Shown here in pieces: positions 20,015 to 32,049 of a stretch of 34,147 nucleotides of DNA. Each line of letters starts with the position of its first letter. Position 1 is the stretch's first letter. The stretch comes from a virus. A program made the position numbers and the translations under genes. The stretch is taken from the IMG/VR virus record IMGVR_UViG_3300009136_000024, positions 1 to 34,147 of that record; one strand, written 5' to 3'. The notes beneath the pieces are model-generated. The model was not told the origin of the DNA, searched no databases, and was given only the letters and a program-made list of their open reading frames with translations.

Positions 20015-20020
20015 AGCGGT

Positions 20021-20049
20021 AGTGTAGCTCAACTTCCTTCGTTCGTCAA
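20021..20049 (-). promoter_or_regulatory. Promoter candidate, leaderless geometry, for the RapZ-C gene
   Basis: TTGACG at 20049-20044, 17-bp spacer, TACACT at 20026-20021 on the minus strand, then exactly 6 nt to ATG at 20014. Transcription from this promoter would begin at or next to the A of ATG, giving a leaderless mRNA. The promoter lies inside the end of the upstream 67-residue gene. Confidence 0.6.
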
Positions 20050-20232
20050 CGTATCAAGGTCTGCGCGCTTCTGCTCGATCTCCGTCAATCGGCAATCGAA
20101 ACGGTAGAGGCGCTTGCATGCTTGGCATTCGAGGTGCATCGCACCATCGATGATGAGGTCGCCCTTCGGCCCACCCAGGGCGAGCTTCCCGCACTTGCAC
20201 TCGAACCGTGGGAAGCTCCCCTGGTATTTCAC
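20029..20232 (-). CDS. Small zinc-finger protein
   Basis: 67 residues from GTG at 20232, sharing GTGA with the stop of the DUF6011-type gene. ECKCGK near residue 11 and ECQACKR near residue 35 give a four-cysteine zinc site, with LYRFDCRL following. The C-terminal helix ends LTEIEQKRADLDTLTNEGS and carries the -35 part of the next promoter in its codons. The family is not named; a small nucleic-acid-binding or adaptor protein is likely. Confidence 0.7.
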   Translation of the reverse strand: MKYQGSFPRFECKCGKLALGGPKGDLIIDGAMHLECQACKRLYRFDCRLTEIEQKRADLDTLTNEGS

Positions 20233-21398: not shown

Positions 21399-21422
21399 GT
21401 CAGTCTCCTTCAGTGTGTTCTC

Positions 21423-21451
21423 AGATTAGGAGAAGGAACCGCGTACGTCAA
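21423..21451 (-). promoter_or_regulatory. Promoter for the DUF6011-type gene
   Basis: TTGACG at 21451-21446, 17-bp spacer beginning TACGCGG, TAATCT at 21428-21423 on the minus strand. About 24 bp later comes the ATG at 21398 with a good ribosome-binding site. The TGA inside TTGACG is the stop codon of the upstream gene at 21448. This is one of the best sigma70-like promoters in the window. Confidence 0.75.
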
Positions 21452-21642
21452 GGCTTTCTGCGAGATTCTCTGTGCTCGCGGCACTCCTCAGTATGAGGAA
21501 ACGCTTTGCGTGCGAGCCACAACAGCCAGAGTTGCACACCGGCGAAAGCCACAAGAAAGAGAGCCAGGAAGGAGAATGCGTTGTCAGCCGCGTCCGATGC
21601 CCGCCGATTGAACCTGCAGCCAGGGCAGCCGGGGCGGTGCAT
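21448..21642 (-). CDS. Small membrane protein with N-terminal CxxC
   Basis: 64 residues from ATG at 21642 with AGGAGAT upstream. The start MHRPGCPGC could bind metal or be lipid- or redox-active. One transmembrane segment spans AFSFLALFLVAFAGVQLWLLW (residues about 22-42), followed by a basic and histidine-containing tail. The family is not recognised. Its stop codon lies within the next promoter. Confidence 0.7.
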   Translation of the reverse strand: MHRPGCPGCRFNRRASDAADNAFSFLALFLVAFAGVQLWLLWLARKAFPHTEECREHRESRRKP

Positions 21643-21652
21643 GGGGCATCTC

Positions 21653-21991
21653 CTAGTCCTCGTCGAGTCTCCCTACGATAGCCTGTGCGCCGTCGATCAG
21701 CTCGTTGAGGTTCTCACACCTGGGGCACTGGTCTGGCGTGCAGCAACAGGGCACGTCGTCGGTGGCTAGTTCGCGCACGAAGTCGGCGATGTCGTCGTCG
21801 ATCGGCTGGATGCTCACGCGTGCATCGCGGATCTTCTCTTGCAGCGTGGCGACTTCGCCGTCGTCCAGGGGCGGAAACGAATCTCCACCCGTCGCCGTCT
21901 GCACGAGATGTGGGCTCGGCCGCGTCGACCGAGACCAGAGGCTAAGTGCGGCCCGAATCGTCGCTAGCTCACGAGGTTCGAGGATCTTCAT
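21653..21991 (-). CDS. Hypothetical protein with C-terminal cysteine cluster
   Basis: 112 residues from ATG at 21991, with CTGGAGCAC about 11 nt upstream and a 23-nt overlap with the previous gene. The N-terminal part is helical (EPRELATIRAALSLWSRS). The C-terminal part has CCCTPDQCPRCENLNELIDG, four to five cysteines that could bind zinc. No family was recognised. It ends 10 bp before the next gene. Confidence 0.65.
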   Translation of the reverse strand: MKILEPRELATIRAALSLWSRSTRPSPHLVQTATGGDSFPPLDDGEVATLQEKIRDARVSIQPIDDDIADFVRELATDDVPCCCTPDQCPRCENLNELIDGAQAIVGRLDED

Positions 21992-22304
21992 CGGGCGTGT
22001 GCTCCAGAGCTTTCTTGATGAAGGGCGCGAACAGCTCACCATAGAGTGGCCTCACGTACTCCCTGGCACAGAGGTCGAGCGCAGCCGCCGCGCGTCGCGG
22101 GTCGAGGCGATCGTCGAGAGCCATGACCTCTTCCACCGACACGAGGAAGAACGGCTTCACACCGTTCTGGTTCAGCAGCGCGAGTGCGTGCTTCACACGC
22201 GAGCGACGCATCGCCTCGTAGTCCATCTCGGTCATGCCGCGGTCGTCCACGGGCGTGCCTTCAGGAATCTCGATCGGTTTGTCACTCAGCGGAGAGTTAG
22301 CCAT
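21969..22304 (-). CDS. Hypothetical helical protein
   Basis: 111 residues from ATG at 22304 behind GGAGG, overlapping the upstream stop by 8 nt; a TTG four codons upstream is possible. Residues 20-60 (MTEMDYEAMRRSRVKHALAL) and the C-terminal half (RRAAAALDLCAREYVRPLYG) are mostly helical with balanced charge. No motif was recognised. It belongs to a run of small overlapping genes downstream of the HD hydrolase. Confidence 0.65.
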   Translation of the reverse strand: MANSPLSDKPIEIPEGTPVDDRGMTEMDYEAMRRSRVKHALALLNQNGVKPFFLVSVEEVMALDDRLDPRRAAAALDLCAREYVRPLYGELFAPFIKKALEHTPDEDPRTS

Positions 22305-22605
22305 GTCGGCCTCCAAGGAACCTCCGCAAGCGGAGTTCCGATTCTGCGCGCAAGGCGCGGGTTCGCCAGTGGTCGGCGCTCTTCTCGATCGACTGCAGCG
22401 AGGAGATCAGTCCCTCCAAGTCGCGCTGCATGGTCGTCGAGTCGAAGTTGAAGACGAACGTGTCGTCTCGGATCTCCACGAGGGGCGGCTCTACCCGGAT
22501 CTCCACGAGGGGCTGCTCGGCCTGTGCCTCGGAGAAGATCGCGTCGATCTCCGCGTCTACGATCTCGTCGTCGAAGAGTACGGGAATGTGAACGTCGATA
22601 TCCAT
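22297..22605 (-). CDS. Hypothetical acidic protein
   Basis: 102 residues from ATG at 22605, four bases after the HD gene stop, with AAGGA about 10 nt upstream. The first 50 residues are very acidic and carry a direct repeat of the type PLVEIR (two copies). The rest is a helix (MQRDLEGLISSLQSIEKSAD) with a basic end. A small DNA mimic or adaptor is conceivable but not shown. Confidence 0.65.
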   Translation of the reverse strand: MDIDVHIPVLFDDEIVDAEIDAIFSEAQAEQPLVEIRVEPPLVEIRDDTFVFNFDSTTMQRDLEGLISSLQSIEKSADHWRTRALRAESELRLRRFLGGRHG

Positions 22606-22609
22606 GTCT

Positions 22610-23116
22610 TCAGTGTCCTTTGTTCGGGGATCCAATCAGATCCAGTGCCTTGGTGTATCGATCCGCAATCGAATCGCCCTGAGCGAGGCTGCGCTCAAGG
22701 TTGTCGTGAATGTCGTGGAACTTGATGAAGTGCCCGTCCGGCGTGCTCGCCGCGCGCTTCACGAAGTCACGGTAGATCTCGCCGCTTTTGCGGGACACGG
22801 CCACCACGGCGTCGGCCACGCGCTCACCGAAGCGGCGCGCAATGTCTTCGCGCTGGACACCAGCCACGCCATCGCCGGTCGGCAGCGCGGTCGGGCCTTC
22901 GCCGTGCGCGACGTAGGGGTTGGTGTCTTCGATCACGTCGTGGAGTACGGCTGCGATCTGGAGATCCTCGTCACCGCCGTGGGCGCGAACGCGCTCCATC
23001 ACGCGGAGCGAGTGGAAGATGTGAGGAGTCCCGTCGCGATCAGTCTGCCCGGCGTGCGAGCGGATCGCGAACAGGATCCCTTTGTCCAGTCTGGTCAGTT
23101 GTCCTTGTTCGGTCAC
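22610..23116 (-). CDS. HD-domain hydrolase, MESH1/SpoT (p)ppGpp-hydrolase-like
   Basis: 168 residues from GTG at 23116, chosen because AGGAG lies 7 nt upstream; ATG at 23131 lacks a site. Residues 13-66 carry the MESH1/SpoT HD pattern: LFAIRSHAGQTDRDGTPHIF with His21 and His35, then IAAVLHDVIEDTN with His59-Asp60 and the ED pair at 63-64. These are metal and catalytic ligands of alarmone hydrolases and related HD enzymes. The protein has only the hydrolase part and no synthetase domain, as in small alarmone hydrolases. Other nucleotides may be the substrate. It overlaps the upstream small gene by about 77 nt. Confidence 0.8.
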   Translation of the reverse strand: MTEQGQLTRLDKGILFAIRSHAGQTDRDGTPHIFHSLRVMERVRAHGGDEDLQIAAVLHDVIEDTNPYVAHGEGPTALPTGDGVAGVQREDIARRFGERVADAVVAVSRKSGEIYRDFVKRAASTPDGHFIKFHDIHDNLERSLAQGDSIADRYTKALDLIGSPNKGH

Positions 23117-23225
23117 AGTCAGGCTCCTCATCGGACGCGAAGTCCAGCTCGAATCTCTCGCGGGCGCTGCGCTCTGTCAGCTTCTTCTCGCGACGGTCTT
23201 TCATCGGGGGTCCACACCGCTTCAT
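23040..23225 (-). CDS. Small highly charged protein overlapping the HD hydrolase gene
   Basis: 61 residues from ATG at 23225 with a near-ideal site (AGAAGGAGACCGCC). The protein is almost entirely charged or polar (KDRREKKLTERSARERFELD) and ends 77 nt inside the HD gene in another frame. The strong start argues that something is translated here, but the unusual overlap lowers confidence in the C-terminal half. Translation may chiefly serve to couple the HD gene. Confidence 0.5.
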   Translation of the reverse strand: MKRCGPPMKDRREKKLTERSARERFELDFASDEEPDCDRTRTTDQTGQRDPVRDPLARRAD

Positions 23226-23243
23226 GGCGGTCTCCTTCTTGCC

Positions 23244-23459
23244 CTACTCCCAAGGCGCGTCGGGCGTGACGATGTCAGTGCCCAGGTTCAGGTAGCCGTG
23301 CTCTTCTCGACCGGGATTGTACACGTACAGGAACCGGCCTCCCATGTGCTCGAACTCTTCTTCGAGTCCGCCGCACGCTGCGACCCACTGGTCTGCCTTG
23401 GCCGAAAGGGCCACGGTGTACTCCTGGGTCGGGGTTACTCGGCTGCTGAATCGTTCCAT
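23244..23459 (-). CDS. Hypothetical small protein
   Basis: 71 residues from ATG at 23459 with AGGAGACCGAC upstream. The sequence (TVALSAKADQWVAACGGLEE, FLYVYNPGREEHGYLNLGTD) looks like a small globular alpha/beta domain. It has its own promoter at 23483-23511 and is the first gene of the next unit. No family was recognised. Confidence 0.7.
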   Translation of the reverse strand: MERFSSRVTPTQEYTVALSAKADQWVAACGGLEEEFEHMGGRFLYVYNPGREEHGYLNLGTDIVTPDAPWE

Positions 23460-23482
23460 GTCGGTCTCCTATGTTGTGGAGT

Positions 23483-23511
23483 ATGTTGCCGTAGGAGCGA
23501 ACCGGTGTCAA
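23483..23511 (-). promoter_or_regulatory. Promoter for the 23459 gene
   Basis: TTGACA at 23511-23506 (perfect -35), 17-bp spacer, CAACAT at 23488-23483 on the minus strand. The ATG is about 23 bp further with a strong ribosome-binding site. It is separated from the previous gene by overlapping hairpins. Confidence 0.65.
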
Positions 23512-23529
23512 CCCTTCTTCACAAAATCG

Positions 23530-23570
23530 GCATATTCACTGACGCAGTAAATATGCAGGTTTCAGTGAAT
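23530..23570 (-). other. Overlapping alternative stem-loops at the end of a membrane protein gene
   Basis: ATTCACTGA (23534-23542) and TCAGTGAAT (23562-23570) are a 9-bp perfect inverted repeat whose upstream RNA arm includes the stop codon. GCATATT (23530-23536) and AATATGC (23550-23556) are a second 7-bp inverted repeat sharing bases with the first. The two stems exclude each other. A weak terminator or a switch are both possible; only a short T run follows. Confidence 0.45.
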
Positions 23571-23843
23571 AAGGGCGTGGTACAAGGCTCCGAAGCCCCA
23601 GGCGAACAGCGGCAGAGCGAAGGCGTTCGCAAGGCGTTCACCCTGTGATCGCTTGTCCTCAGCGTAGTTGTGCGTCGAAACGGACACCAGCATGCGCAGA
23701 CCCAGAGCGTGGGCGATGCCGATCGCTGGCGCTCCCAGAGGCACCACGAACCAGCCCCACAGTTCCACGGTCACGAAGCCACTGAACACAATGACGCAGG
23801 CGAACATCACCAACCAGAACACAAACTTGACGAACTTATCCAT
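23562..23843 (-). CDS. Small two-segment membrane protein
   Basis: 93 residues from ATG at 23843, overlapping the RNA ligase stop as TAATG. Hydrophobic segments are FVFWLVMFACVIVFSGFVTV (residues about 7-26) with WGWFVVPLGAPAIGIAHALG behind it, and a C-terminal FALPLFAWGFGALYHALI. Charged residues lie between (NYAEDKRSQGERLAN). No holin signature can be proven. It is last in its unit and is followed by paired hairpins. Confidence 0.7.
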   Translation of the reverse strand: MDKFVKFVFWLVMFACVIVFSGFVTVELWGWFVVPLGAPAIGIAHALGLRMLVSVSTHNYAEDKRSQGERLANAFALPLFAWGFGALYHALIH

Positions 23844-24868
23844 TAGAACAACTCCGGTGCGTATTTCTTCGTCTGCAGAATCACGTGAGTCCGCAGCTTC
23901 TTGAAATCGACAGTGGGGAACTTGTGCTTCTTCAGAGCCATCCACAGCTCTTCGTTCACGAACTCGTGGAACATGGTGCCCAGCAGTCGCGGGATCAGTT
24001 GCCCGCGGTGTCGCTCCTGCACTCGGCGAATAGCTTGCTCCATCAAGTCACCGTAATCTTCTCCGGCAAAGCTTCGCGTCGGGCTGGGCTCCACCTGATC
24101 CGCGATGTCCTGATCGTACAGCTCGTGCAGGATCTTGAACTTCGTCTTCTCTACCAGTGCCTGGGTCAGGAACTCCTGGGCCATGGCAGCCTCGACTTGG
24201 AACTCACCACCCTTCTCGGGAACGCCGAACGCGCGCTTGTTCTCTTCCTTGAACTCGTTGCGAACGATCTTCGCCCAGGGCTGCCGACCGTAACGGTTCT
24301 GCCACGCGTAGTTCTTGATGACGATGCCTTCCCCCGCACCCGCACCATCGAGGATCAGGTACGAGTTGTTCTCGGTCTCTCGCGTTAGCTGCTCCTCACT
24401 TGGGTTGGTGTAGGTGCACATGGGCTCGATCACATCGAGGCCCACACCGCGGATGGTGGGCTCCCACTGCTCGTAGTGCAGGTAGCGGCCCTTCTCGTTG
24501 TCATACACGTCGAACACGTAGAACTTCCGCCACGCCTCTTCGCGGTACTGCTTGAACGTGTGCGGCACAAGCCACTCACCGTAGATCGTCCAGTGGTGGT
24601 GCCCCTGGCGCAGGATCTCGAAGAACTTCTGCTCGGCCTCGTTGGTGTGTGCCCAGGCCCAGAAGCCTGCGTTGTCCGACTCCGAACTCAGGGTGCGCGT
24701 GCGACTACCGCAGCAGACGTGGGGACCATCTTCGTCGCCCCCGGGCTCGAACCATACGCTGGCGTTGGTGCCATCCAGCTTCGCGAAAACGAACACGTCC
24801 CCGATGATCAGCTCGTTCACGTCATCGTGGCCTAGGCGCTCCACGTGGTCGTACTTACGAAACGTCAT
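23843..24868 (-). CDS. RNA ligase, T4 Rnl2-like
   Basis: 341 residues from ATG at 24868 with AAGGAGCAGT upstream; longer in-frame extensions are shadow sequence. Ligase motifs are in order: I, KLDGTNAS at 30-37 with Lys30 as the adenylated residue; a YGEWL segment at 96-100; III, FYVFDVYD at 116-123; IV, EGIVIKN at 180-186; V, AKIVRNEF at 199-206. The KLDGTN start and the long helical C-terminal domain fit the Rnl2 group, which seals nicks in duplex RNA, rather than DNA ligase. It is separated from RtcB only by one small gene, so both RNA-joining chemistries are probably co-expressed. RNA specificity is inferred from family pattern. Confidence 0.88.
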   Translation of the reverse strand: MTFRKYDHVERLGHDDVNELIIGDVFVFAKLDGTNASVWFEPGGDEDGPHVCCGSRTRTLSSESDNAGFWAWAHTNEAEQKFFEILRQGHHHWTIYGEWLVPHTFKQYREEAWRKFYVFDVYDNEKGRYLHYEQWEPTIRGVGLDVIEPMCTYTNPSEEQLTRETENNSYLILDGAGAGEGIVIKNYAWQNRYGRQPWAKIVRNEFKEENKRAFGVPEKGGEFQVEAAMAQEFLTQALVEKTKFKILHELYDQDIADQVEPSPTRSFAGEDYGDLMEQAIRRVQERHRGQLIPRLLGTMFHEFVNEELWMALKKHKFPTVDFKKLRTHVILQTKKYAPELF

Positions 24869-25166
24869 ACTGCTCCTTCTGCTTCTTCGTGGCTCGGCCG
24901 GAGTGCCGCACCCAGTACTCGAAGCACTTCTGCTCCAGCGCGCTGTCTTCCTTGTAGAAGAGCGCGGTGTGGAACGTCTCCAGCTCACCCGTCTGCGTGC
25001 CAGCCAGAGCGTTCACGAAGAACTGCCCCAGGCGTAGCGAAGGGAAGTCACGCCACATCCGGTAGATGTTCTGCGAGATTTCGTGCTGGTCGTTGTTGCG
25101 GTACTCCGACTCGTGGTGCTTCGGCCGCGCGTGCGGTTGACTCGGTCGGCATTGTCGTCTCGCCAT
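24855..25166 (-). CDS. Conserved-type phage protein of unknown function
   Basis: 103 residues from ATG at 25166, three bases after the RtcB stop, with AAGGGGTAG upstream; it overlaps the RNA ligase start by 14 nt. A basic, proline-rich N-terminus (CRPSQPHARPKHHESEYRNN) precedes IYRMWRDFPSLRLGQFFVNA and TALFYKEDSALEQKCFEYWV. The RLGQ...N and lFyxED elements recur in many small phage and bacterial proteins of unknown role. Position between RtcB and the RNA ligase suggests a link with RNA repair but does not prove it. Confidence 0.75.
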   Translation of the reverse strand: MARRQCRPSQPHARPKHHESEYRNNDQHEISQNIYRMWRDFPSLRLGQFFVNALAGTQTGELETFHTALFYKEDSALEQKCFEYWVRHSGRATKKQKEQYDVS

Positions 25167-25168
25167 GA

Positions 25169-26404
25169 CTACCCCTTGACGCACACGCGTGCACGTAGAG
25201 TGTGCTTGATCGAGACCAAGTCCTTCTGGGCCTCCATCACTGCATCGATGTCCTTGTAGGCTCCGGGCGTCTCGTCGATGACACTCTCGTCCTTCCGACA
25301 CTCGACTCCCTGCGTAGCCTTCACGTGGTCTTCCACCGTGAACGTCTTCCGGGCCTTGCCGCGCGACATGCGTCGCCCAGCTCCGTGGCTGCACGAGTGG
25401 AAGGCCTTCTCGTTGCCCAGTCCTTCCACGATGTAGCTCCGCGTGCCCATCGAGCCCGGGATGATGCCCATGACACCCTCGCGGGCCAGGACTGCGCCCT
25501 TGCGCGTGACGAACACGTTCTCCCCGTAGTGGTGCTCGCGAGCGACGTAGTTGTGGTGGCACTCGACGATCGTCTCGCCGCCATACTCACCAACCCAGCC
25601 GAACGAGCCGCCCAGGTGCTTCATCGCGTTCATGACGTTGGTCATCATGATCTGACGATTCAGTTCGGCGTATCGCTGCGCCCACATCACCGCTTCCCAG
25701 TACTCGTCGAAGCCCGGCGTGCCTTCGGGAAGGAACGAGAGGTTCGAGTCTTCCAGATCCACGAAGTAGGCCTCGCACGTGGTCTTCGCCTTCGCGATGA
25801 AGTGCTGTCCAATGCGATTGCCGATGCCACGCGAACCAGAGTGCAGCATGAGCCACACGTTCTCGTCTTCGTCGAAGCAAATCTCGATGAAGTGGTTACC
25901 GCCGCCCAGCGTGCCTAGCTGGCGCTGTGGCGTGCCCCACTTCCCGATGCGCGGGTTCTTCGTGACGATGTCATGGAACGCACCACACAGCTCGTTGTTC
26001 CAGTGCTTGACCGCCAGTGCGTGTGGGTCGCCCCAGGCACCGCGATCATTCGCGCCGCCGTTGTCCGTGCGTCCGTGCGGAACGTGCTTCTCGATCGTCG
26101 CTCGCACTTCCTCAGCACGGTCGTTCAGCTCGTCCGCGCTCACGCCGGGAAGCTTGCGTGCCAGCATGCCGCAGCCAATGTCCACGCCTACTGCAGCGGG
26201 GATGATCGCGCCGCGCGTCGGGATGACGCTGCCGACCGTGGAGCCCATGCCCCAGTGCACGTCGGGCATGACCGCGAGGTGCTTGTAGATGAACGGCATG
26301 TCGCGCGTCCGCAAGAGCTGCTCGAAAGCCTCCTGCTCTACCTCGACCCCATTAGTCCAACCAAAAATCGGCTTCTTGTTCTTGCCCGGGTTCAGATTTT
26401 CCAT
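25169..26404 (-). CDS. rtcB: RtcB-type RNA-splicing ligase
   Basis: 411 residues from ATG at 26404 with GGAGAAACGG upstream. RtcB joins 2',3'-cyclic phosphate (or 3'-phosphate) RNA ends to 5'-OH ends, using GTP and Mn2+. Key elements are all present: MPDVHWGMG (46-54), GVDIGCGM (73-80, with Asp75 and Cys78), LGGGNHF (166-172, His171), HSGSRG (188-193, His188), CHHNY (282-286), SHGAGR (339-344, His340 as the guanylylated residue) and the final VKG. Length is near the bacterial norm. No archease or RtcA partner is in the window. It lies within a cluster with an Rnl2-like ligase, a KH protein and a RlaP-like enzyme, which fits repair of RNA cut during host defence. Confidence 0.95.
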   Translation of the reverse strand: MENLNPGKNKKPIFGWTNGVEVEQEAFEQLLRTRDMPFIYKHLAVMPDVHWGMGSTVGSVIPTRGAIIPAAVGVDIGCGMLARKLPGVSADELNDRAEEVRATIEKHVPHGRTDNGGANDRGAWGDPHALAVKHWNNELCGAFHDIVTKNPRIGKWGTPQRQLGTLGGGNHFIEICFDEDENVWLMLHSGSRGIGNRIGQHFIAKAKTTCEAYFVDLEDSNLSFLPEGTPGFDEYWEAVMWAQRYAELNRQIMMTNVMNAMKHLGGSFGWVGEYGGETIVECHHNYVAREHHYGENVFVTRKGAVLAREGVMGIIPGSMGTRSYIVEGLGNEKAFHSCSHGAGRRMSRGKARKTFTVEDHVKATQGVECRKDESVIDETPGAYKDIDAVMEAQKDLVSIKHTLRARVCVKG

Positions 26405-26421
26405 TTCCGTTTCTCCATTGT

Positions 26422-26688
26422 CTATTCCGACTCGTCTTGCACCAGCCAGTACTCGTAGAGCCCGTTGTTCACGTAGTCTTTCCGAATGTCGTGTGAGCCA
26501 TGCCTGGGCTTCCGAAGATGCCGAAGCTGCGCCGAGATGGACGCGGGCGGGTCACCCGTGATCTCTTCCAACCGCCGCAGTGTGAACCGCAGACCCGTCT
26601 GCATGACCTTCAACACACGATCCCGCTGTGCGAGCAACCGAAGGTCATCTCGCTTGGGTAGGTAGTCCGATCCGTTGAAGTGGCTCAC
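26422..26688 (-). CDS. Winged-helix DNA-binding-like protein
   Basis: 88 residues from GTG at 26688, sharing GTGA with the KH gene stop. Residues about 20-65 (RDRVLKVMQTGLRFTLRRLE EITGDPPASISAQLRHLRK) fit a winged helix with recognition helix SISAQLRHLRK, followed by a GLYEYWL wing or strand. This layout recurs in phage proteins that regulate transcription or act as accessory replication factors. It lies between the KH protein and RtcB. The target is unknown. Confidence 0.75.
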   Translation of the reverse strand: MSHFNGSDYLPKRDDLRLLAQRDRVLKVMQTGLRFTLRRLEEITGDPPASISAQLRHLRKPRHGSHDIRKDYVNNGLYEYWLVQDESE

Positions 26689-26951
26689 TGCACGATCTCC
26701 AAGATGTAGCGAGAACCAGCCTTTCCGGTCCAAGCGATCATGATGGTCCGAAGTGCATCTGCAGTTCGTCCCTGTTTTCCGATGACCTTTCCTCGGTCGT
26801 CGGGGTCGACGTAGAGCACGAAGATCGTCATGTCTTCGGCTTGGGTCACGGTGCACCGAACTTCGTTCGGGAGGTCGACCATGCGTTGCACGATGCTCAC
26901 GAGTACACACTCGATCGGCACCAGATCAATCGTCTCGTCCGTGTTGGTCAT
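26685..26951 (-). CDS. KH-domain RNA-binding protein, KhpA-like
   Basis: 88 residues from ATG at 26951, overlapping the upstream stop as ATGA. The protein is essentially one KH domain: VLVSIVQRMVDLPNEVRCTV, then FVLYVDPDDRGKVIGKQGRT with the GxxG loop GKQG at 58-61, and ADALRTIMIAW. This is the layout of bacterial KhpA, an RNA-binding protein that in many bacteria pairs with KhpB and affects cell division and sRNA. A phage copy may bind host or phage RNA, or compete with host KhpA. It sits one gene from RtcB, so an RNA repair link is plausible. No KhpB-like partner is in the window. Confidence 0.88.
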   Translation of the reverse strand: MTNTDETIDLVPIECVLVSIVQRMVDLPNEVRCTVTQAEDMTIFVLYVDPDDRGKVIGKQGRTADALRTIMIAWTGKAGSRYILEIVQ

Positions 26952-27247
26952 GACCTCCCCTCGAAGATGTGCCAGACCCACTGGGAGTCGAAGAAGGTTG
27001 CGACGAACTCGCCGTACTCACACGCGTCGAACTCGCGCCCGGTTCCGACCATGATGAACTTCCGGGTCTGTCGACCCTTCACCTCGTTGTCGACCTGTGC
27101 CCACATGCACACGCTGTTCGCCTGCATGGCGACCTTGCGAATTTCTGAGTGGGAAGGCATCTCTACCTCGGTGGTGAAGACGCCATCGCCGACCTCCTTC
27201 AGGTCGAGCGAAAACTTGTGCATCACGTTGTGTGTCGATATCCGCAT
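26948..27247 (-). CDS. DUF7352-like small phage protein
   Basis: 99 residues from ATG at 27247, with AACAGGAG about 10 nt upstream and a 25-nt overlap with the upstream membrane gene. The sequence VEMPSHSEIRKVAMQANSVC MWAQVDNEVKGRQ then FIMVGTGREFD fits a widespread small phage domain (mP.. then ..lWa.vD.. then v.GTG). Its role is not known. It precedes the KH gene in the same unit. Confidence 0.7.
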   Translation of the reverse strand: MRISTHNVMHKFSLDLKEVGDGVFTTEVEMPSHSEIRKVAMQANSVCMWAQVDNEVKGRQTRKFIMVGTGREFDACEYGEFVATFFDSQWVWHIFEGRS

Positions 27248-27615
27248 TCTGGATGGACTCCTGTTCGTTGTTCGTACGGGGAGGGGCCGAGGACCGCGCG
27301 ATCAACGCGTTCCCTGGCGATGAGGCTCCAGAAGAAGAAGACCACATGAATCGTTCCCCAGACCCAGCGTCCTTGGGAGAAGGCCAACGCGGCGAGCGCG
27401 AAGCTCAGGTACATGCCGAAGCTGTACCCCCAGCGTGGGGCGTGTGCGTAGGAGCGTATGCGCGACGCGGCCTCCGACAGGATGTTCCCATCGGGATCCT
27501 CTCCCTCCGGGCCTGTCGAAGACTTCCGGGTGGATCCACGGTGATCAACCGCAGACTTCCCGGCACCTCGTCGCACGTTCTTTTTGGCGTGCTTGAAATC
27601 GATGACTGTTGCCAT
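27223..27615 (-). CDS. Membrane protein with basic N-terminus, leaderless start
   Basis: 130 residues from ATG at 27615. No ribosome-binding site precedes it; instead a -10 box ends exactly 6 nt upstream, so the mRNA is probably leaderless. The first 50 residues are basic and polar (FKHAKKNVRRGAGKSAV). Two hydrophobic segments follow (GMYLSFALAALAFSQGRW and VWGTIHVVFFFWSLIA), then a polar tail. The family is not recognised; a membrane-associated takeover or exclusion protein is possible. Confidence 0.7.
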   Translation of the reverse strand: MATVIDFKHAKKNVRRGAGKSAVDHRGSTRKSSTGPEGEDPDGNILSEAASRIRSYAHAPRWGYSFGMYLSFALAALAFSQGRWVWGTIHVVFFFWSLIARERVDRAVLGPSPYEQRTGVHPECGYRHTT

Positions 27616-27621
27616 GTGATC

Positions 27622-27650
27622 AGAGTAACCTAAGTTGGAGGGTACGTCAA
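27622..27650 (-). promoter_or_regulatory. Promoter with leaderless geometry for the 27615 gene
   Basis: TTGACG at 27650-27645, 17-bp spacer beginning TACCCTCC, TACTCT at 27627-27622 on the minus strand, then GATCAC and ATG. The TGA in TTGACG is the stop of the deaminase gene. The distance from the -10 box to the ATG puts the expected +1 on the A of ATG. Confidence 0.7.
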
Positions 27651-28135
27651 CCAGTTCCGATGCGACTTCGTGCCAGATCGGGATCGTTGATGACGCTGCA
27701 CCGGATCAGCTCGACTCCGCGCTCCTCAGCCAGGGCCGCAGCCTCAGCGAAGGCGTACTTCGGGTCATCCAGGCGATCGCGGAAGGGATCGTTGTCGTGG
27801 TCGATGATGATCCGCTTCACCCCGGCGTCAGCCATCGTCTTCACGCAGTTGTAGCAGGGCGTGCCCAGGGTGAGCACCGTGTGAGGCTTCGCCCCAGTGC
27901 TCGCACACTCGGTGATCACGTTGACCTCGGAGTGGGTGGAGAGTTCCAGCCGCGCGTCTCGTGTCAGTGTCTCGGGCGCACCATGCTCGATGAAGTTCGC
28001 GCGGATCGCCCGCACGTCTCCTCGTGTGCATACCGCGACCGCGGCAGTCTTCGTCACCGGGTCGTTCGAGTACTCGCAGTGGCCGCGAAGGTAGTCGAAC
28101 AGTTGGTGCACCTTGTAAGTCTGGATGTTGGACAT
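27647..28135 (-). CDS. dCMP / cytidine deaminase-like protein
   Basis: 162 residues from ATG at 28135, overlapping the upstream TAA as TAATG. The zinc deaminase motifs are HSE at 68-70 (within LSTHSEVNVITECAST) and PCYNC at 93-97 (within TLGTPCYNCVKTMADAGVKR), with Glu70 as proton shuttle and His68, Cys94 and Cys97 as ligands. Such enzymes convert dCMP to dUMP for thymidylate synthesis in many phages. The HSE variant of HAE is tolerated in the family. The substrate could also be cytidine or a modified base. Confidence 0.85.
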   Translation of the reverse strand: MSNIQTYKVHQLFDYLRGHCEYSNDPVTKTAAVAVCTRGDVRAIRANFIEHGAPETLTRDARLELSTHSEVNVITECASTGAKPHTVLTLGTPCYNCVKTMADAGVKRIIIDHDNDPFRDRLDDPKYAFAEAAALAEERGVELIRCSVINDPDLARSRIGTG

Positions 28136-28605
28136 TAGAAATCCTCTCTGATTGCTCGCCAGTTGGGATCGGGAACATCCTGTTCCACGGTCCAGTTCAG
28201 CCATCCGCCGTAGTAGCCGTTGCTCTCGTTGCGGTAGTCGATGTCGATGCGGTGCCCGCGCGTGGTGATCAGCGAGATGCCGTAGAGCGCGAGGCATTCG
28301 TAGCCCTCATCGTCCACGTTCTTCTGCGTCGCCAGTTCGGGGTTGCAGTCCACGCGGTCGACGACGGCACCGATCGCGCCCTCAACACCAGAGACGTGCT
28401 CGACCCACGAGTGGCTGCAGCAGTCCCCTTCCGGCGAAGCGTAGATCACGCTGTTGTCGTCGAACGAGAATGCAACGTCACCATCGCGATGCCACACGCC
28501 AGTGATCGTCTTGCCCACGAAGTGCTTGAGGTTCTCTTCGTGATACCCAGTGAGCTGTTCGAGCATCTGCCCCAAGCCCTTAACCGTTCCCCGTTCGACC
28601 GACAC
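28135..28605 (-). CDS. DUF7448-like phage protein
   Basis: 156 residues from GTG at 28605, chosen for GGAGG 7 nt upstream; the longer frame runs back through the previous gene. The pattern LKHFVGKTITGVWHRDGDVAFSFDD, then SPEGDCCSHSWVEHVSGVEG and LALYGISLITTRGHRIDIDY, is typical of a family widespread in phages (GDCCS motif, residues about 76-80). Its biochemical role is unknown. It is translationally linked to the deaminase by TAATG. Confidence 0.75.
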   Translation of the reverse strand: MSVERGTVKGLGQMLEQLTGYHEENLKHFVGKTITGVWHRDGDVAFSFDDNSVIYASPEGDCCSHSWVEHVSGVEGAIGAVVDRVDCNPELATQKNVDDEGYECLALYGISLITTRGHRIDIDYRNESNGYYGGWLNWTVEQDVPDPNWRAIREDF

Positions 28606-28792
28606 GATCGTTCCTCCCGCGTTCAAATCTATTGCTCTTGATCTCGAAGTGCATGACGCTCTTGTCAGACACCACGTTGGACAACACGAACAGCTCATCG
28701 AGCTTCAAGCCCGAATGAGAGTTCTTGGCCCACTGGTCACTCAGCGGATCGTCGAGAAGCTCCCGAAGAGACAGCGACTCTCCTGACGCCAT
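28580..28792 (-). CDS. Hypothetical small protein
   Basis: 70 residues from ATG at 28792, soon after the upstream TGA, with GAGAAG close by. The sequence (SLSLRELLDDPLSDQWAKNS, LDELFVLSNVVSDKSVMHFE) could form a small helix-strand domain ending in a basic tail (RFERGRNDRVGRTG). It overlaps the next start by 26 nt. No family was recognised. Confidence 0.6.
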   Translation of the reverse strand: MASGESLSLRELLDDPLSDQWAKNSHSGLKLDELFVLSNVVSDKSVMHFEIKSNRFERGRNDRVGRTGNG

Positions 28793-28796
28793 CTTC

Positions 28797-29078
28797 TCAA
28801 GCTTCGAGTCCCAAACCGAGGGAGTCGATGATCGCCTGAATCGACTGCTCCGAGATGTCGCTCTTGCTGTCGGGATCGACGCAGGCAGCGTGTGCGTCAC
28901 CATCGTGGACGCCCTGGTGGTACGCGACTGCAAGGAGCGGACGCAGTGTGTCCAAAGCTTGAGAAGCTGCCTCGTGCGCGAGTTTCGATCCCGGGTCATC
29001 TGACGGCTCCCAGTGCTTTGCCAAGCTGCGAAGCTTCGCCCACGCCGATTTGCTCTTGACCTGTTCTTCGGAAGTCAT
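28797..29078 (-). CDS. Hypothetical small helical protein
   Basis: 93 residues from ATG at 29078 behind GAGGTG. It is largely helical (SKSAWAKLRSLAKHWEPSDD, EAASQALDTLRPLLAVAYHQ) and acidic towards the end. No catalytic motif was seen. It directly follows the nucleotidyltransferase gene and may be co-translated. Confidence 0.65.
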   Translation of the reverse strand: MTSEEQVKSKSAWAKLRSLAKHWEPSDDPGSKLAHEAASQALDTLRPLLAVAYHQGVHDGDAHAACVDPDSKSDISEQSIQAIIDSLGLGLEA

Positions 29079-29086
29079 GGTGCACC

Positions 29087-30079
29087 TCAGTCATGTTGTC
29101 CGATCGCTTCCGCGTAGCACGCGACCACGCGAGCGTCGGCCCACTCCCTGTCGGGACTGTTCGGCAGCTTACTCGACTCCATAGCCACGTCAAGCTGCTC
29201 CATTCCATTTTCGATCTCTTCGGCGACTTCCTTGTACGGTCGCTCGCCCAGGCGGATCTTCAGAAGTGCGTCAGCGTTGTGCCTGGGGAACGTGATCACT
29301 CCCGTGTCCAGCAGTTCGCAAGCCTGATCTTGGATCCGCCGCGCGTGCATCAGCGCCTTCCAGTCGATGCCCTCGTTGTTCATCGCCGCACGGCTGCGCT
29401 CGCCGTACCGCTGCCACAGGTGCTGGTACATCTCCAGAGCCTTCTCGATCGGCAGCGTGAACGGCGCGAGCTTCCCGCAGACACTGAGGTGCTTCACCTC
29501 GTGGCCTTCGCGGTTGTACCGGCTCTCGATCTCGATGTGCTCCCTATCGAGCAGTCGATCCTCGATCATGTGCTGGAAGTCGATCACACGCGCACGTCCG
29601 GCCATCGGACGCGGAAGCGTCTGCATGTCTTGGAACACCTCGACCGCAGCCTTCGCCGCAGCCATGCGCGAGCCCTTGATCCCGTACTTGTTTGCCTGGG
29701 ATCGGCAGTAGCCCACGAACGGCGCGATCGATCGGGAGATCAGCTTGTCGCGATTCCCAACGATGATGCGCCAGTGGTTGCTCGAACCCGTGTAGAACGC
29801 CTCGGGCACGAAGAGCATGTCGATGGCAACAGTCTGCCCTTCGCACGCGAGCTTCATGAACCCGTGCAGGCTGAACTCTTCCACGTCGATGTCGCCGACC
29901 TGATTCTTCGAGCGATCGTTTCCCGTGCTGCGGTTGCGCGAGACCTTCGTCGCACGCTGCAGCAGGAGATCCTTCGTGGAGGGAATGAAGACTGCCTTGA
30001 AGTCCATGTCGCTGTCCGGCGTGTTGGTGCCATAGACGTGCGACCCGAACTGCATGTGGGCCAGAGTGATTTCTTCCAT
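29087..30079 (-). CDS. RlaP-like nucleotidyltransferase (polymerase-beta superfamily, RNA repair type)
   Basis: 330 residues from ATG at 30079, shortly after the upstream stop. The N-terminus has the minimal polymerase-beta signature: FGSHVYGTNTPDSDMDFKAV (11-30), that is GSHxYGT with the metal-binding DSDMD at 22-26. IDVEEFSLHGFMKLACEGQT (near 76-95) and a long helical C-terminal region follow. This fits the PF10127/RlaP group, which genome analyses tied to RNA ligases and proposed to repair cleaved tRNA or other RNA ends. The adjacent phosphoesterase and the nearby RtcB and Rnl2-like ligase strengthen that reading. The exact activity is unproven. Confidence 0.82.
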   Translation of the reverse strand: MEEITLAHMQFGSHVYGTNTPDSDMDFKAVFIPSTKDLLLQRATKVSRNRSTGNDRSKNQVGDIDVEEFSLHGFMKLACEGQTVAIDMLFVPEAFYTGSSNHWRIIVGNRDKLISRSIAPFVGYCRSQANKYGIKGSRMAAAKAAVEVFQDMQTLPRPMAGRARVIDFQHMIEDRLLDREHIEIESRYNREGHEVKHLSVCGKLAPFTLPIEKALEMYQHLWQRYGERSRAAMNNEGIDWKALMHARRIQDQACELLDTGVITFPRHNADALLKIRLGERPYKEVAEEIENGMEQLDVAMESSKLPNSPDREWADARVVACYAEAIGQHD

Positions 30080-30080
30080 G

Positions 30081-30641
30081 TTAGTCCCGGTTGTTCTTTC
30101 TGTTGTGATGGTCAACGATGTGTGGCTTCCGAACGCTCAGCATCTCAACCACGCGGTCGAACGAGATCATGCCCTCGTCCCAGCCGATCCACTTGCAGTC
30201 GATGCCCACGTCCATGCGTGCGCCCTTGGGCGGCAGCGAACCGTGGGAGTGCCCGTGCAGATGGAACGAGCCGTGGTGATGGTTGCGCCAGACCTCGAAC
30301 GCGTAATGGCTCAGCATCACTTGGAAGCCCTTGTGCTTCAGCTCGTAGTAGTCCCGCACCATCGCCCAGCCATGAGTCTTCTTCAGTTGCTTCGAGTGGT
30401 CGTGGTTGCCCTTGATCAGGATCTTGTTCCCAGGCAGCCGCGAGAGGATGCTCGAAGTGCGCCCGGCGTTGTGGAACGAGAAGTCCCCAACGAAGTAGAC
30501 CGTGTCGCCACGCTGCACCTTCTGGCACCAGAGACTGATCATGCACTCGTCCATGTCGTCCACGTTCTTGAACGGACGATTCGAGTACTTGATCACGTTC
30601 TCGTGACCGAAGTGAAAGTCTGCAGCGAACCAGATGCTCAT
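30081..30641 (-). CDS. Calcineurin-like metallophosphoesterase
   Basis: 186 residues from ATG at 30641 with ACGGGAAAC upstream. Motifs are complete: ADFHFGH (7-13, with Asp8, His10 and His13), GDFSF (52-56), GNHD (78-81), LSHYA (110-114) and HGHSHG (129-134). It is a compact single-domain phosphoesterase of the kind encoded by many phages. Next to a RlaP-like nucleotidyltransferase it may process 2',3'-cyclic or 3'-phosphate RNA ends before ligation; dephosphorylation of other substrates is possible. The stop is one base before the next gene's start region. Confidence 0.88.
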   Translation of the reverse strand: MSIWFAADFHFGHENVIKYSNRPFKNVDDMDECMISLWCQKVQRGDTVYFVGDFSFHNAGRTSSILSRLPGNKILIKGNHDHSKQLKKTHGWAMVRDYYELKHKGFQVMLSHYAFEVWRNHHHGSFHLHGHSHGSLPPKGARMDVGIDCKWIGWDEGMISFDRVVEMLSVRKPHIVDHHNRKNNRD

Positions 30642-30642
30642 T

Positions 30643-30861
30643 TCAGTTTCCCGTGTGTTGCAGCTCGTAGCAGTCGGGCTCGTGCCCGGCCTTGCCGCAT
30701 GTGTCGCATCGCTCCAGCATGACGATGACCTTGTCCTCGACGCCAACGCGATCGAAGATGCGGTTGTCTTCCATGAACTGGGTCAGGTCGGCGTCGTCAC
30801 CGGCTACTCGATGCCCGATCTGCTTCCCGAACTTGTCGCGGAGTAGAACCCCAACGCTCAT
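30643..30861 (-). CDS. Small zinc-binding-like protein
   Basis: 72 residues from ATG at 30861, overlapping the upstream stop as TAATG. The N-terminal part is a small beta-like region (MSVGVLLRDKFGKQIGHRVA). CDTCGKAGHEPDC near residues 51-63 gives a zinc knuckle-like cysteine/histidine set. No family was recognised. It is one of a run of very small cysteine-containing proteins. Confidence 0.65.
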   Translation of the reverse strand: MSVGVLLRDKFGKQIGHRVAGDDADLTQFMEDNRIFDRVGVEDKVIVMLERCDTCGKAGHEPDCYELQHTGN

Positions 30862-31327
30862 TAGTCTTCCTCCGTCCATCGCTCGCGCGTGTCCACCATC
30901 GCCATGCGCGTGTTGGTTGGCTCGACCGGCAGCTCTCCCCGCTCGCAAGCCAGAGAGTGGTAGTCGGGGCCGGTTGCGCCGCACGTCTTGCAAACGCGAC
31001 CATCGGGGTACTCACCACCGATGCCGAATACTTCCTTGTTGGGAATTCCAACAGCCATCCAATGCTCCTTCTCAGATCTTCAAACGCGATTTTGGCACAA
31101 GTTGCCAAGTACGTCAACAGGTTCCTCTTGGGGAGCGCAGATTGTCGGCCCTCAGCGGCAGCCTGCGCCCAGCACCGTTGCATGTCAGCCAGGAGCGCAG
31201 CCTGCAGGCGGACGCACTGGGGGTCATCTAGGTGCTTGTCGAGGTGTGCCGCCAGCCCGGCGCGGGATCCTTCCCACCTGCAGGGTTCGCACACGCCGTG
31301 GCCCATGACGTGGAAGTACTGCTTCAC
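30797..31327 (-). CDS. Hypothetical protein; C-terminal part of the frame doubtful
   Basis: 176 codons from GTG at 31327, which shares GTGA with the upstream stop. The first 70 residues look real: HGVCEPCRWEGSRAGLAAHL, then VRLQAALLADMQRCWAQAAA, with a CxxC pair. From about residue 72 the frame runs through a promoter and over the whole next gene (30861-31058), where its sequence has the look of a shadow. The true protein may stop near 31100 after a frameshift or base-call difference. The role is unknown. Confidence 0.45.
   Translation of the reverse strand: MKQYFHVMGHGVCEPCRWEGSRAGLAAHLDKHLDDPQCVRLQAALLADMQRCWAQAAAEGRQSALPKRNLLTYLATCAKIAFEDLRRSIGWLLEFPTRKYSASVVSTPMVAFARRAAQPAPTTTLWLASGESCRSSQPTRAWRWWTRASDGRRKTNERWGSTPRQVREADRASSSR
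30861..31058 (-). CDS. Small zinc-finger-like protein
   Basis: 65 residues from ATG at 31058 with AGAAGGAG upstream and its own promoter at 31089-31117. The N-terminus (MAVGIPNKEVFGIGGEYPDG) precedes VCKTCGATGPDYHSLACERG, a Cys/His zinc site. The C-terminus is acidic. The strong start and promoter favour this frame over the 30797-31327 frame that overlaps it. The role is unknown. Confidence 0.7.
   Translation of the reverse strand: MAVGIPNKEVFGIGGEYPDGRVCKTCGATGPDYHSLACERGELPVEPTNTRMAMVDTRERWTEED
31089..31117 (-). promoter_or_regulatory. Promoter for the 31058 gene
   Basis: TTGACG at 31117-31112, 17-bp spacer beginning TACTTGG, CAAAAT at 31094-31089 on the minus strand, about 30 bp before ATG with a good ribosome-binding site. 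It lies inside the doubtful 3' half of the 30797-31327 frame. Confidence 0.6.
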
Positions 31328-31512
31328 TGGGACGCCGCGTGCTGGAGGCACCAGCGCCGAACCCAGAAGCGGTTCCAGCAGATGGCGCTCTCCCAGTCGT
31401 CCGGCCCGTGCCCCAGGTACATGCCGAGGTGGTCGTGCCACTTGACGACGTAGCCCTCGGGCAGCGGGGGCAGGCACCCGAAGTTCACGATCACGCTGCC
31501 GTCACCGTGCAT
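31324..31512 (-). CDS. Hypothetical small protein
   Basis: 62 residues from ATG at 31512, overlapping the upstream stop by 11 nt. The sequence VIVNFGCLPPLPEGYVVKWH DHLG and WESAICWNRFWVRRWCL is rich in Trp and has three cysteines. The earlier part of the same frame is arginine-rich shadow sequence. No family was recognised. Confidence 0.6.
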   Translation of the reverse strand: MHGDGSVIVNFGCLPPLPEGYVVKWHDHLGMYLGHGPDDWESAICWNRFWVRRWCLQHAASQ

Positions 31513-31729
31513 TGCGGTACGTCTCCTGCAGCCCGTGGAAGATCGACATGCTGGAGACCGTGCGGTCCTCACCATCCTCGACCCGCCTGAGCTTCGTGTA
31601 GAACTCGCCCTCGTGGCCGGTGACCTCCCAGTCCTGGCCGGAGACATGCACCACCTCGCCAACGACGTACCGGCGCTTGGTGGGAGGCGCGTGCACACGT
31701 GTGCTTCTGCCGTACGAACGCTTGCTCAC
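31502..31729 (-). CDS. Hypothetical small protein, SH3-like
   Basis: 75 residues from GTG at 31729, sharing GTGA with the upstream stop. The segment RYVVGEVVHVSGQDWEVTGH followed by FYTKLRRVEDGEDRTV has the alternating strands of a small SH3-like barrel. Its coding sequence includes a TGCACACGTGTGC palindrome near the N-terminus. The function is unknown. Confidence 0.6.
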   Translation of the reverse strand: MSKRSYGRSTRVHAPPTKRRYVVGEVVHVSGQDWEVTGHEGEFYTKLRRVEDGEDRTVSSMSIFHGLQETYRNAR

Positions 31730-32049
31730 AGTAGCTTCTCCCGAATGATCTTGATCGCCTGCAGGTGGTCGTGCACGTGAGTGCCACCGCCCCATTGCTT
31801 GTCGACGATCAGCTTCGCGGAGCTGGGCCACCACTCCACGGTGTGTCCGGCCTTGGCGAAGATCCAATGGTGCCCGTCGTTGTGCACGGTGAGGCGGACG
31901 CCCTCGCTGGCGCACCACTCCCGCACCTCGTCCAGGCGCTTCTCGTTGGTGGCGAGGCGTCGAGCGTGCCGCTCCCCAGGCTCTTCACCGTGCTTGTACG
32001 GCACGAGCTTTGAACTGCCCGCCTTCTTGCTATCGCCGTACCGGCTCAT
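31726..32049 (-). CDS. Hypothetical protein
   Basis: 107 residues from ATG at 32049, overlapping the upstream stop as ATGA. A basic N-terminus is followed by a helix (RLATNEKRLDEVREWCASEG) and strands (VRLTVHNDGHHWIFAKAGHT, VEWWPSSAKLIVDKQ). The end HVHDHLQAIKIIREKL is a helix with several histidines. It resembles small phage proteins of unknown role with a DNA- or nucleotide-binding look, but no motif is decisive. Confidence 0.65.
   Translation of the reverse strand: MSRYGDSKKAGSSKLVPYKHGEEPGERHARRLATNEKRLDEVREWCASEGVRLTVHNDGHHWIFAKAGHTVEWWPSSAKLIVDKQWGGGTHVHDHLQAIKIIREKLL

Follow-up and report, generated by a model that had tools for sequence, protein, structure and literature searches.

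An operon-like gene block of an uncultured tailed phage with a probable RNA repair kit at its core

We identified, in an uncultured tailed phage, an operon-like block of 15 genes on the minus strand (30861-23562; Table 1), the core of which is probably an RNA repair kit. The window, meaning the entire stretch of DNA that was analyzed, comprises all 34,147 bases of an IMG/VR record, which could be only part of a genome. Many bacteria have defences that cut RNA, and phage survival of such attack has been characterized best in T4. RtcB seals 3'-phosphate or 2',3'-cyclic-phosphate RNA ends to 5'-OH ends, and Rnl2 seals 3'-OH to 5'-phosphate ends; the RtcB and the Rnl2-like ligase of the window would each join ends of the corresponding kind. 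Moreover, the RlaP-type nucleotidyltransferase would restore a lost nucleotide ahead of sealing, and the calcineurin-like phosphoesterase may remove 3' phosphates, enabling the ATP-dependent ligase to act. We infer that these enzymes act jointly on such substrates, that they probably target tRNAs, of the host or the phage, that host nucleases have cleaved, and that the set serves in counter-defence. A unit this compact, combining RlaP and a phosphatase with both ligase chemistries, is well suited to expression and testing.

The sequence-only reading had placed five families on one strand, RtcB, the Rnl2-like ligase, RlaP, the phosphoesterase and a KhpA-like KH protein, all of which were confirmed by profiles, and the main motifs of all except RlaP were fully recovered by pattern search. 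In RtcB, the profile PF01139 was covered from position 1 to 426 of 426 (397 bits, cut-off 27), and both pattern search and alignment to solved RtcB chains found the motifs DIGCG, GGGNHF, HSGSRG, HHNY and SCSHGAGR intact, which we take to hold the Cys/His residues that bind metal and the His that acts as nucleophile. The Rnl2-like ligase contains KLDGT, YGE, FDV, EGIVIK and KIVR, presumably nucleotidyltransferase motifs I, III, IIIa, IV and V, and its key residues are unchanged across six aligned relatives. Its predicted structure (pLDDT 65.8) matched T4 Rnl2 via 2hvr (Z 13.3, rmsd 18.0, 246 aligned) and via 1s68 (Z 13.2, rmsd 3.7, 178 aligned); the archaeal ligase 5d1o scored within 1 of these (Z 12.3, rmsd 3.2, 162 aligned), and the top rank in Foldseek was a Naegleria ligase. 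The C-terminal part of the model is helical, and most structure matches cover residues 5-213 only. For RlaP, the PF10127 match spans residues 21-150 of the frame searched, which began at 30082, with the gene start at 30079. The claim that its motifs are visible stood for GSHVYG and SDMD of the Pol beta site (GSxxYG and SDxD), but the third acidic residue was missed by the pattern used. The phosphoesterase had no match in Pfam; it matches the solved structure 1xm7 (E 3.5e-15), and its metal-binding motifs DxH, GD, GNHD and GHxH are intact. Of 14 control cellular genomes, 11 also matched its family, which is therefore not specific to RNA repair.

Table 1. Genes of the run, listed from its 30861 end, and the adjoining hairpin.
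Feature	Coordinates	Strand	Length (aa)	Matches and remarks
Small ORF	one end at 30643	-		run member at the 30861 end
Calcineurin-like metallophosphoesterase	30081..30641	-	186	phrog_547, E 1.9e-50
RlaP-type nucleotidyltransferase	29087..30079	-	330	PF10127, 35.7 bits (cut-off 23); phrog_388, E 4.8e-83
Small protein	28797..29078	-	93	no family above cut-off
Small ORF	28580..28792	-	70	
DUF7448 protein	28135..28605	-	156	PF24240, 50.2 bits (cut-off 27)
dCMP/cytidine-deaminase-like protein	27647..28135	-	162	HSE...PCxxC; PF00383, 29.8 bits (cut-off 25); phrog_174, E 1.9e-9
Small protein	27223..27615	-	130	no family above cut-off
DUF7352 protein	26948..27247	-	99	PF24043, 61.5 bits (cut-off 27)
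KhpA-like KH protein	26685..26951	-	88	VIGKQG; PF13083, E 1.1e-18
Small protein	26422..26688	-	88	no family; weak match to a MarR-family PHROG, E 0.05
RtcB RNA ligase	25169..26404	-	411	PF01139, E 1.5e-118
Small protein	24855..25166	-	103	2 nt after RtcB; 14-nt overlap with the Rnl2-like gene
Rnl2-like ATP-dependent RNA ligase	23843..24868	-	341	PF09414, E 7.7e-21; phrog_548, E 1.1e-39
Small ORF	23562..23843	-	93	last in run; membrane-bound look, judged by eye
Terminator-like hairpin	23530..23556	-		12 pairs, T-rich tail; directly past the end of the run

The genes are tightly packed: from 30861 to 23562, the gaps between neighbours are 1, 1, 8, 4, -26, -1, 31, -25, -4, -4, 17, 2, -14 and -1 nt, so that the largest measures 31 nt and 7 of the 14 junctions are overlaps. 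The run is probably transcribed as a single unit. The hairpin past its end has a fold z of -6.9; across the window, terminator-like sites were not above shuffled sequences (6 versus a mean of 8.8), and a standard scan found promoter-like sites at chance level (2 versus a mean of 2.0). A looser TTGAC/TAnnnT promoter pattern, which was picked after reading the sequence, occurred 5 times versus 0.59. PADLOC, applied to 10 proteins of the window, returned no match.

The deaminase-like gene and the small ORFs at 30643, 28797, 28580 and 27223 had been overlooked in the sequence-only reading, which had singled out four small genes as unknowns and as candidates for new parts of the system. Two of these belong to named families, DUF7352 (26948) and DUF7448 (28135), while those at 24855 and 26422 are indeed without a family, and as new parts of the system only DUF7448 was retained, owing to its recurrent adjacency to RtcB. 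For the 24855 protein, a search of 50,697 phage records (E<=0.01) and of Pfam, even at E 5, gave no match, and its predicted structure is of low confidence (pLDDT 55); the product of 26422..26688 is possibly a winged helix. Neither has relatives among the loci compared: a profile search of all loci gave two sources for each, and likewise for the KH protein, a bare count that presumably reflects the window itself plus L001, its copy, and both were rejected as recurrent parts. DUF7352 gave three sources, with one other locus (L023). With E<=0.01 as the limit, the KH protein has matches in 11 of those 50,697 records. A longer frame (23562-23945) that overlaps the last ORF of the run had no Pfam match.

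Linkage of the repair genes outside the window is pairwise. From 85 loci, 50 records formed the main sample; L006, L007 and 33 loci in records shorter than 44 kb were set aside, and L006 and L007 entered a comparison set of 31 records instead. RtcB, an Rnl-type ligase, RlaP and the phosphoesterase occurred together in none of the 50 records and in 1 of the 31, where two pairs lie approximately 22.6 kb apart and unclustered, and no record searched had the same contiguous gene set as the window. The expectation of conserved co-occurrence was thus borne out for some pairings but not for the whole set. Rnl-type ligases lie nearer to RtcB than under random placement in the 10 records found through RtcB that hold both, one of which was found through Rnl2 too (Fisher p 2.2e-5), and in all 12 records with the pair (p 5.8e-5), 4 of which have the two genes within 1.3 kb. 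However, the presence of an Rnl-type ligase was not enriched with RtcB (9/45 versus 3/13 controls, Fisher p 1.0), as counted by hand in records of at least 30 kb found through neither Rnl2 nor RlaP, with one control record (that of L110) itself carrying RtcB. RlaP lies 3.1 and 1.1 kb from an Rnl-type ligase in 2 viral records found through RlaP, closer than chance, and L006, L007 and L123 have the two genes close together; RlaP showed no more linkage to RtcB than expected by chance (p 0.21, n=6). For the distance between phosphoesterase and RtcB, the KS test gave p 0.007, and the Fisher value was disregarded since it rests on one overlapping pair. Within the clade of the window's RtcB, L002, L003 and L010 have a phosphoesterase no more than 0.2 kb after RtcB, and close relatives of the window's RtcB and of its Rnl2-like ligase occur together in L002, L003 and L004. 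Clustering of neighbours at 61 nonredundant RtcB loci revealed no family in more than 7 loci, and a DNA-ligase scan for a control set found nothing.

The joint role in RNA healing that the sequence-only reading had suggested therefore draws on complementary end chemistries, the operon-like run and two recurring pairings, but is weakened by the lack of conservation of the whole set, of RlaP-RtcB linkage and of Rnl-type ligase enrichment with RtcB. The lack of whole-set conservation and of RlaP-RtcB linkage would also be expected of a mosaic accessory region, in which unrelated useful early genes have gathered in a hotspot and two or three of them act on RNA separately, outside any joint pathway. 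Relatives carry the repair genes singly or in pairs, the phages XM05, vB_EliS-L02 and Cr30 encode RlaP, but neither annotation nor profile search revealed an RNA ligase within 10-15 kb per side, and KH, deaminase and DUF7352 genes are interspersed in the run, in which the deaminase and the DUF genes may have roles apart from RNA. However, the proximity of RtcB to Rnl-type ligases (n=10-12) and of these to RlaP (n=2) in other records, together with the overlapping junctions of the run, speaks against such a mosaic, and we regard the mosaic as an unlikely explanation, albeit one of some weight.

Considerably less probable still is that, instead of repairing damage from defences, the ligases complete RNAs of the phage or the host that phage development needs, by splicing or at tRNA or mRNA ends. 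In line with such processing, the run includes a KhpA-like RNA-binding protein, and approximately 3.5 kb beyond the run lies a protein with a RapZ C-terminal domain. However, searches of the window, which may be a fragment, detected neither tRNA genes nor any Rfam family at gathering score, and two ligase chemistries combined with RlaP would fit damaged ends better. An RNA repair kit at the core of the run is the reading that we prefer.

DUF7448 is a candidate accessory part of this kit, put forward purely from its repeated genomic adjacency to RtcB. RtcB was found within 6 kb at 5 of 76 nonredundant DUF7448 loci, with approximately 0.24 expected from the RtcB frequency in a different collection, determined with one query; with the expectation doubled to 0.49, the probability of at least 5 is 1.5e-4. 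The flank limits and the quoted distances between DUF7448 and RtcB were examined after seeing the data, and a distance test in the 50-record sample was modest (Fisher p 0.003, KS p 0.055, n=6). On the RtcB tree, the adjacency label requires at least 9 changes, gains and losses not being told apart, of which 5 are forced by starred branches; shuffled labels required 11.5 on average, with 8 of 500 shuffles as low as 9, and there may have been one old pairing with later losses. Among 141 of the 143 immediate neighbours picked at the 76 loci, RtcB matched 3 times, and common phage genes were equally frequent there (Helicase_C 4, ResIII 3, YqaJ 3, DEAD 3). When the window's DUF7448 protein served as the query (its frame began at 28590; the gene starts with GTG at 28605, with GGAGG upstream), none of the 10 records found had RtcB, and in the closest kin of the window's RtcB (L002, L003, L004, L008, L009 and L010) no DUF7448 gene lies less than 2 kb from RtcB. 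In 11 of 12 named DUF7448 phages, picked from 60 listed of 104 records, RtcB was not profile-matched within 4-6 kb per side, and several of their DUF7448 genes sit among nucleotide metabolism genes. In the Sinorhizobium phage AP-16-3, RtcB lies 67 nt from DUF7448 and is labelled a hypothetical protein. We tentatively suggest, as a speculative reading, that DUF7448 is an unrecognized accessory of phage RNA repair, likely acting with RtcB, that it is paired with very different RtcBs in several lineages, and that in the operon of the window it joins the phosphoesterase, RlaP and two ligases of different chemistry. The recurrent pairing is a new lead: it points to a specific protein that could be a missing helper, and it renders a role of DUF7448 in RNA repair testable.

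Several known systems resemble parts of the run. In the phage isolate ctuNt529 (MW202692), the RlaP gene (PF10127, E 2.2e-17) directly adjoins the gene of an RNA ligase (PF09414, E 5.8e-27) that is 30.5% identical to that of the window; unlike in the window, the next gene is annotated as a polynucleotide kinase, and the stretch examined has no annotated RtcB. The viral record L042 shares RtcB and RlaP with the window, 0.6 kb apart, but differs in a Ro60-like TROVE protein and a HAD PNKP phosphatase domain, and neither an Rnl-type ligase nor a phosphoesterase of the searched families was found in it. Jumbo phages have been surveyed for RNA repair genes, reportedly by Iyer, Aravind and colleagues. 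T4 itself repairs tRNA against PrrC with Pnk and Rnl1, according to a passage of PMC12409363, and the window would likewise encode both end healing and RNA ligation, which in T4 restore the cut tRNA. The window differs in that no polynucleotide kinase was found among the ORFs scanned against Pfam or PHROGs, although it may be a fragment, in that its ligase is Rnl2-like rather than Rnl1, and in its additional RtcB.

Section 3.4.9 of the jumbo-phage survey (PMC7824862) describes mixtures of RtcB, Rnl1, Rnl2 and RlaP, read as counter-defence RNA repair that would reverse the damage done to translation by host RNases; phosphatases of the calcineurin-like and HD-like kinds occur in a few of these phages. 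BcepSaruman and BcepSauron are said to have RtcB, Rnl1 and Rnl2. The idea of joint repair is thus largely already in print in that section, and RtcB, an Rnl2 or Rnl2-like ligase, RlaP and, in few of those sets, a calcineurin-like phosphatase are common to them and the window. Whereas the section gives presence per phage, reports operonic linkage for a cRec domain only and does not name DUF7448, the window holds RtcB, the Rnl2-like ligase, RlaP and the phosphoesterase in one run of approximately 7 kb. RNA repair is a known strategy of phages, and its packing in the window is unusually tight.

The dense cluster of RNA repair genes proposed in the sequence-only reading is present: 15 minus-strand genes lie in a single run between 30861 and 23562, in which no gap exceeds 31 nt and overlaps occur at 7 of the 14 junctions between neighbors, and the families and main motifs of its repair genes were confirmed (see table). 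The whole IMG/VR record is the window itself (34,147 bases). Directly after the run comes a hairpin of 12 pairs whose tail is T-rich (fold z of -6.9); terminator-like sites across the window were not in excess (6 versus a shuffle mean of 8.8). When positions 20000-32000 were searched for near-identity against 50,697 phage records, the single match comprised 53 bases within RlaP (29355-29407; Erythrobacter phage XM05, 92.5% identity).

Features of the RNA repair run and of other minus-strand genes in the window
Feature	Position	Strand	Basis or remark
Phosphoesterase	30081-30641	-	Family evidence and motif patterns
RlaP	29087-30079	-	Family evidence and motif patterns; third acidic residue not matched by pattern
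DUF7448	28135-28605	-	Family evidence
Deaminase-like gene	27647-28135	-	Family evidence and motif patterns
DUF7352	26948-27247	-	Family evidence
KhpA-like KH gene	26685-26951	-	Family evidence and motif patterns
RtcB	25169-26404	-	Family evidence and motif patterns
Gene without family	24855-25166	-	Between RtcB and the Rnl2-like gene
Rnl2-like RNA ligase	23843-24868	-	Family evidence and motif patterns
HD-domain protein	22610-23131	-	PF13328, PF01966; 430 nt past the last gene of the run
RapZ C-terminal domain protein	19619-20032	-	PF22740, E 1.5e-31
T5 A1-like "DNA transfer" protein	15271-16803	-	phrog_1745, E 7.5e-130

The RapZ C-terminal domain is an RNA-binding adaptor domain in cells. The A1-like protein shares 43-44% identity with its counterparts in Stenotrophomonas and Xanthomonas phages, and profile relatives of the HD protein flank DUF7448 in the comparison loci L132, L138, L183, L185, L194, L091, and L220. 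A promoter-like pattern, TTGAC...TAnnnT, which was picked after the sequence had been read, occurs at 5 sites, all on the minus strand and including 27622-27650 (0.59 in shuffles); one site sits almost entirely inside the 31-nt gap of the run.

The ligase (341 aa) carries adenylyltransferase motifs and matches PF09414. For a structure model built from six sequences (pLDDT 65.8), VIA-align placed T4 Rnl2 at the top (1s68: Z 13.2, rmsd 3.7, 178 aligned; 2hvr: Z 13.3, rmsd 18.0, 246 aligned), with the archaeal RNA ligase 5d1o within 1 Z of it (Z 12.3, rmsd 3.2, 162 aligned); Foldseek ranked a Naegleria RNA ligase first. We designate the protein Rnl2-like, which stops short of a proven Rnl2. Its closest relatives found were in the viral records L002, L003, and L004 (64-67% identity), followed by L005 (54%) and L075 (50%).

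Conservation of the whole set was assessed in a main sample of 50 viral records, 47 reached via RtcB (including that of L002, reached via Rnl2 as well) and 3 via Rnl2 alone (L003, L004, and L005). RtcB was found in 49, an Rnl-type ligase (phrog_548) in 13, 12 of them with RtcB, RlaP (phrog_388) in 6, and the phosphoesterase (phrog_547) in 7; none of the 50 combined all four families in the profile search. In the comparison set, which comprised 31 records (2 reached via RlaP, 1 via the A1-like protein, 10 via DUF7448, and 18 via RecA), RtcB was found in 4 (one a part match), Rnl in 5, RlaP in 2, and the phosphoesterase in 3. All four occurred in one of these, the 132-kb record of L007, where RtcB and the phosphoesterase are 3.6 kb apart and Rnl and RlaP 1.1 kb, with approximately 22.6 kb between the pairs. 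Since many records are fragments, the absence of a family is weak evidence.

Against random placement of genes, the distance between Rnl and RtcB was short, both in the 10 RtcB-found records with both genes (Fisher p 2.2e-5) and in all 12 records with both (p 5.8e-5; at most 1.3 kb in 4 of 12). RlaP was not closer to RtcB than under random placement (p 0.21, n = 6), and the phosphoesterase adjoins RtcB in 3 of 7 records, all three from the window's own RtcB clade. Nor was the Rnl-type ligase enriched with RtcB (9 of 45 RtcB-found records of at least 30 kb versus 3 of 13 controls). Taken together, the distance and presence tests therefore show that pairs recur as neighbors and that a fixed kit is not supported: of the conserved co-occurrence that the sequence-only reading proposed as a check, Rnl-RtcB closeness held up, and linkage of the full set did not. 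In one viral record (L042:1743-5913), TROVE (Ro60-like), RtcB, HAD PNKP phosphatase, and RlaP genes are consecutive.

The pairing of DUF7448 with RtcB represents a new, if modest, lead; the literature searched yielded no mention of the term DUF7448. Six of the 50 main-sample records contain the family: in three, RtcB lies at distances of 99, 366, and 1193 nt, and in the remaining 3 it is 38-46 kb away. The gene order in L075 is Rnl2, DUF7448, RtcB, and in L074 the last base of the DUF7448 frame is the first base of the RtcB frame. Viewed from RtcB, DUF7448 lies in the flank of 5 of 57 nonredundant loci, within 1.2 kb in four. Viewed from DUF7448, 100 loci (79 of a set of 80, the other being that of L074, plus 10 and 11) formed 76 groups at 80% identity, and RtcB was present in the examined flank of 5 groups, four within approximately 0.5 kb and one at 4.2 kb, where the frequency of RtcB in named phages predicts 0.24 (P(≥5) 6e-6). 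Both genes share a strand in 16 of 16 loci with both, duplicates counted. DUF7448 shows 63% identity between L138 and L198 and 66% between L142 and L198, as against 30% for their RtcBs. On a quick RtcB tree of 83 rows, DUF7448 within 2 kb labels 12 rows, including the window, and this label must change no fewer than 9 times; starred branches force 5 of these changes, and a gain is not distinguished from a loss. L175 and L170 sit on long branches in this tree, and long branches come together at L133 and three more.

Among named phages, DUF7448 lies 67 nt from RtcB in Sinorhizobium phage AP-16-3; a stretch of 4.4 kb in Acidovorax phage ACP17 holds DUF7448 together with a phosphoesterase, an HD protein, and an annotated RNA ligase; and in Bacillus phage Grass, DUF7448 is flanked by ribonucleotide reductase genes, with no RtcB detected by profile search in 4 kb on either side. 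One of 141 scanned proteins neighboring DUF7448 was a cRec domain, which has been tied to RNA ligases (PMC7824862). In L146, L150, and L152, loci that resemble near-copies, an Rnl-type ligase, DUF7448, and a phosphoesterase span approximately 5.3 kb, with 29 nt between the latter two in L146.

The end chemistry of the RtcB and Rnl2 ligase classes is established; beyond gene identity and order, we infer the workings of the run. RtcB would seal ends made by metal-independent RNases and the Rnl2-like ligase 3'-OH/5'-P ends, with RlaP putting back lost nucleotides and the phosphoesterase possibly cleaning 3' ends. The phage roles of RlaP and calcineurin-like phosphatases are predictions (PMC7824862, section 3.4.9). 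The RNA repair run itself is real, ordinary in kind, and unusually compact. According to the respective reports, PrrC-cut tRNA is repaired by T4 Pnk and Rnl1 (PMC12409363), Bacillus phage Grass encodes RtcB (PMC3853049), Privateer carries tRNA genes approximately 1 kb from RtcB (PMC7881722), and Lacusarx harbors rtcB and tadA inside its tRNA region (PMC5648845).
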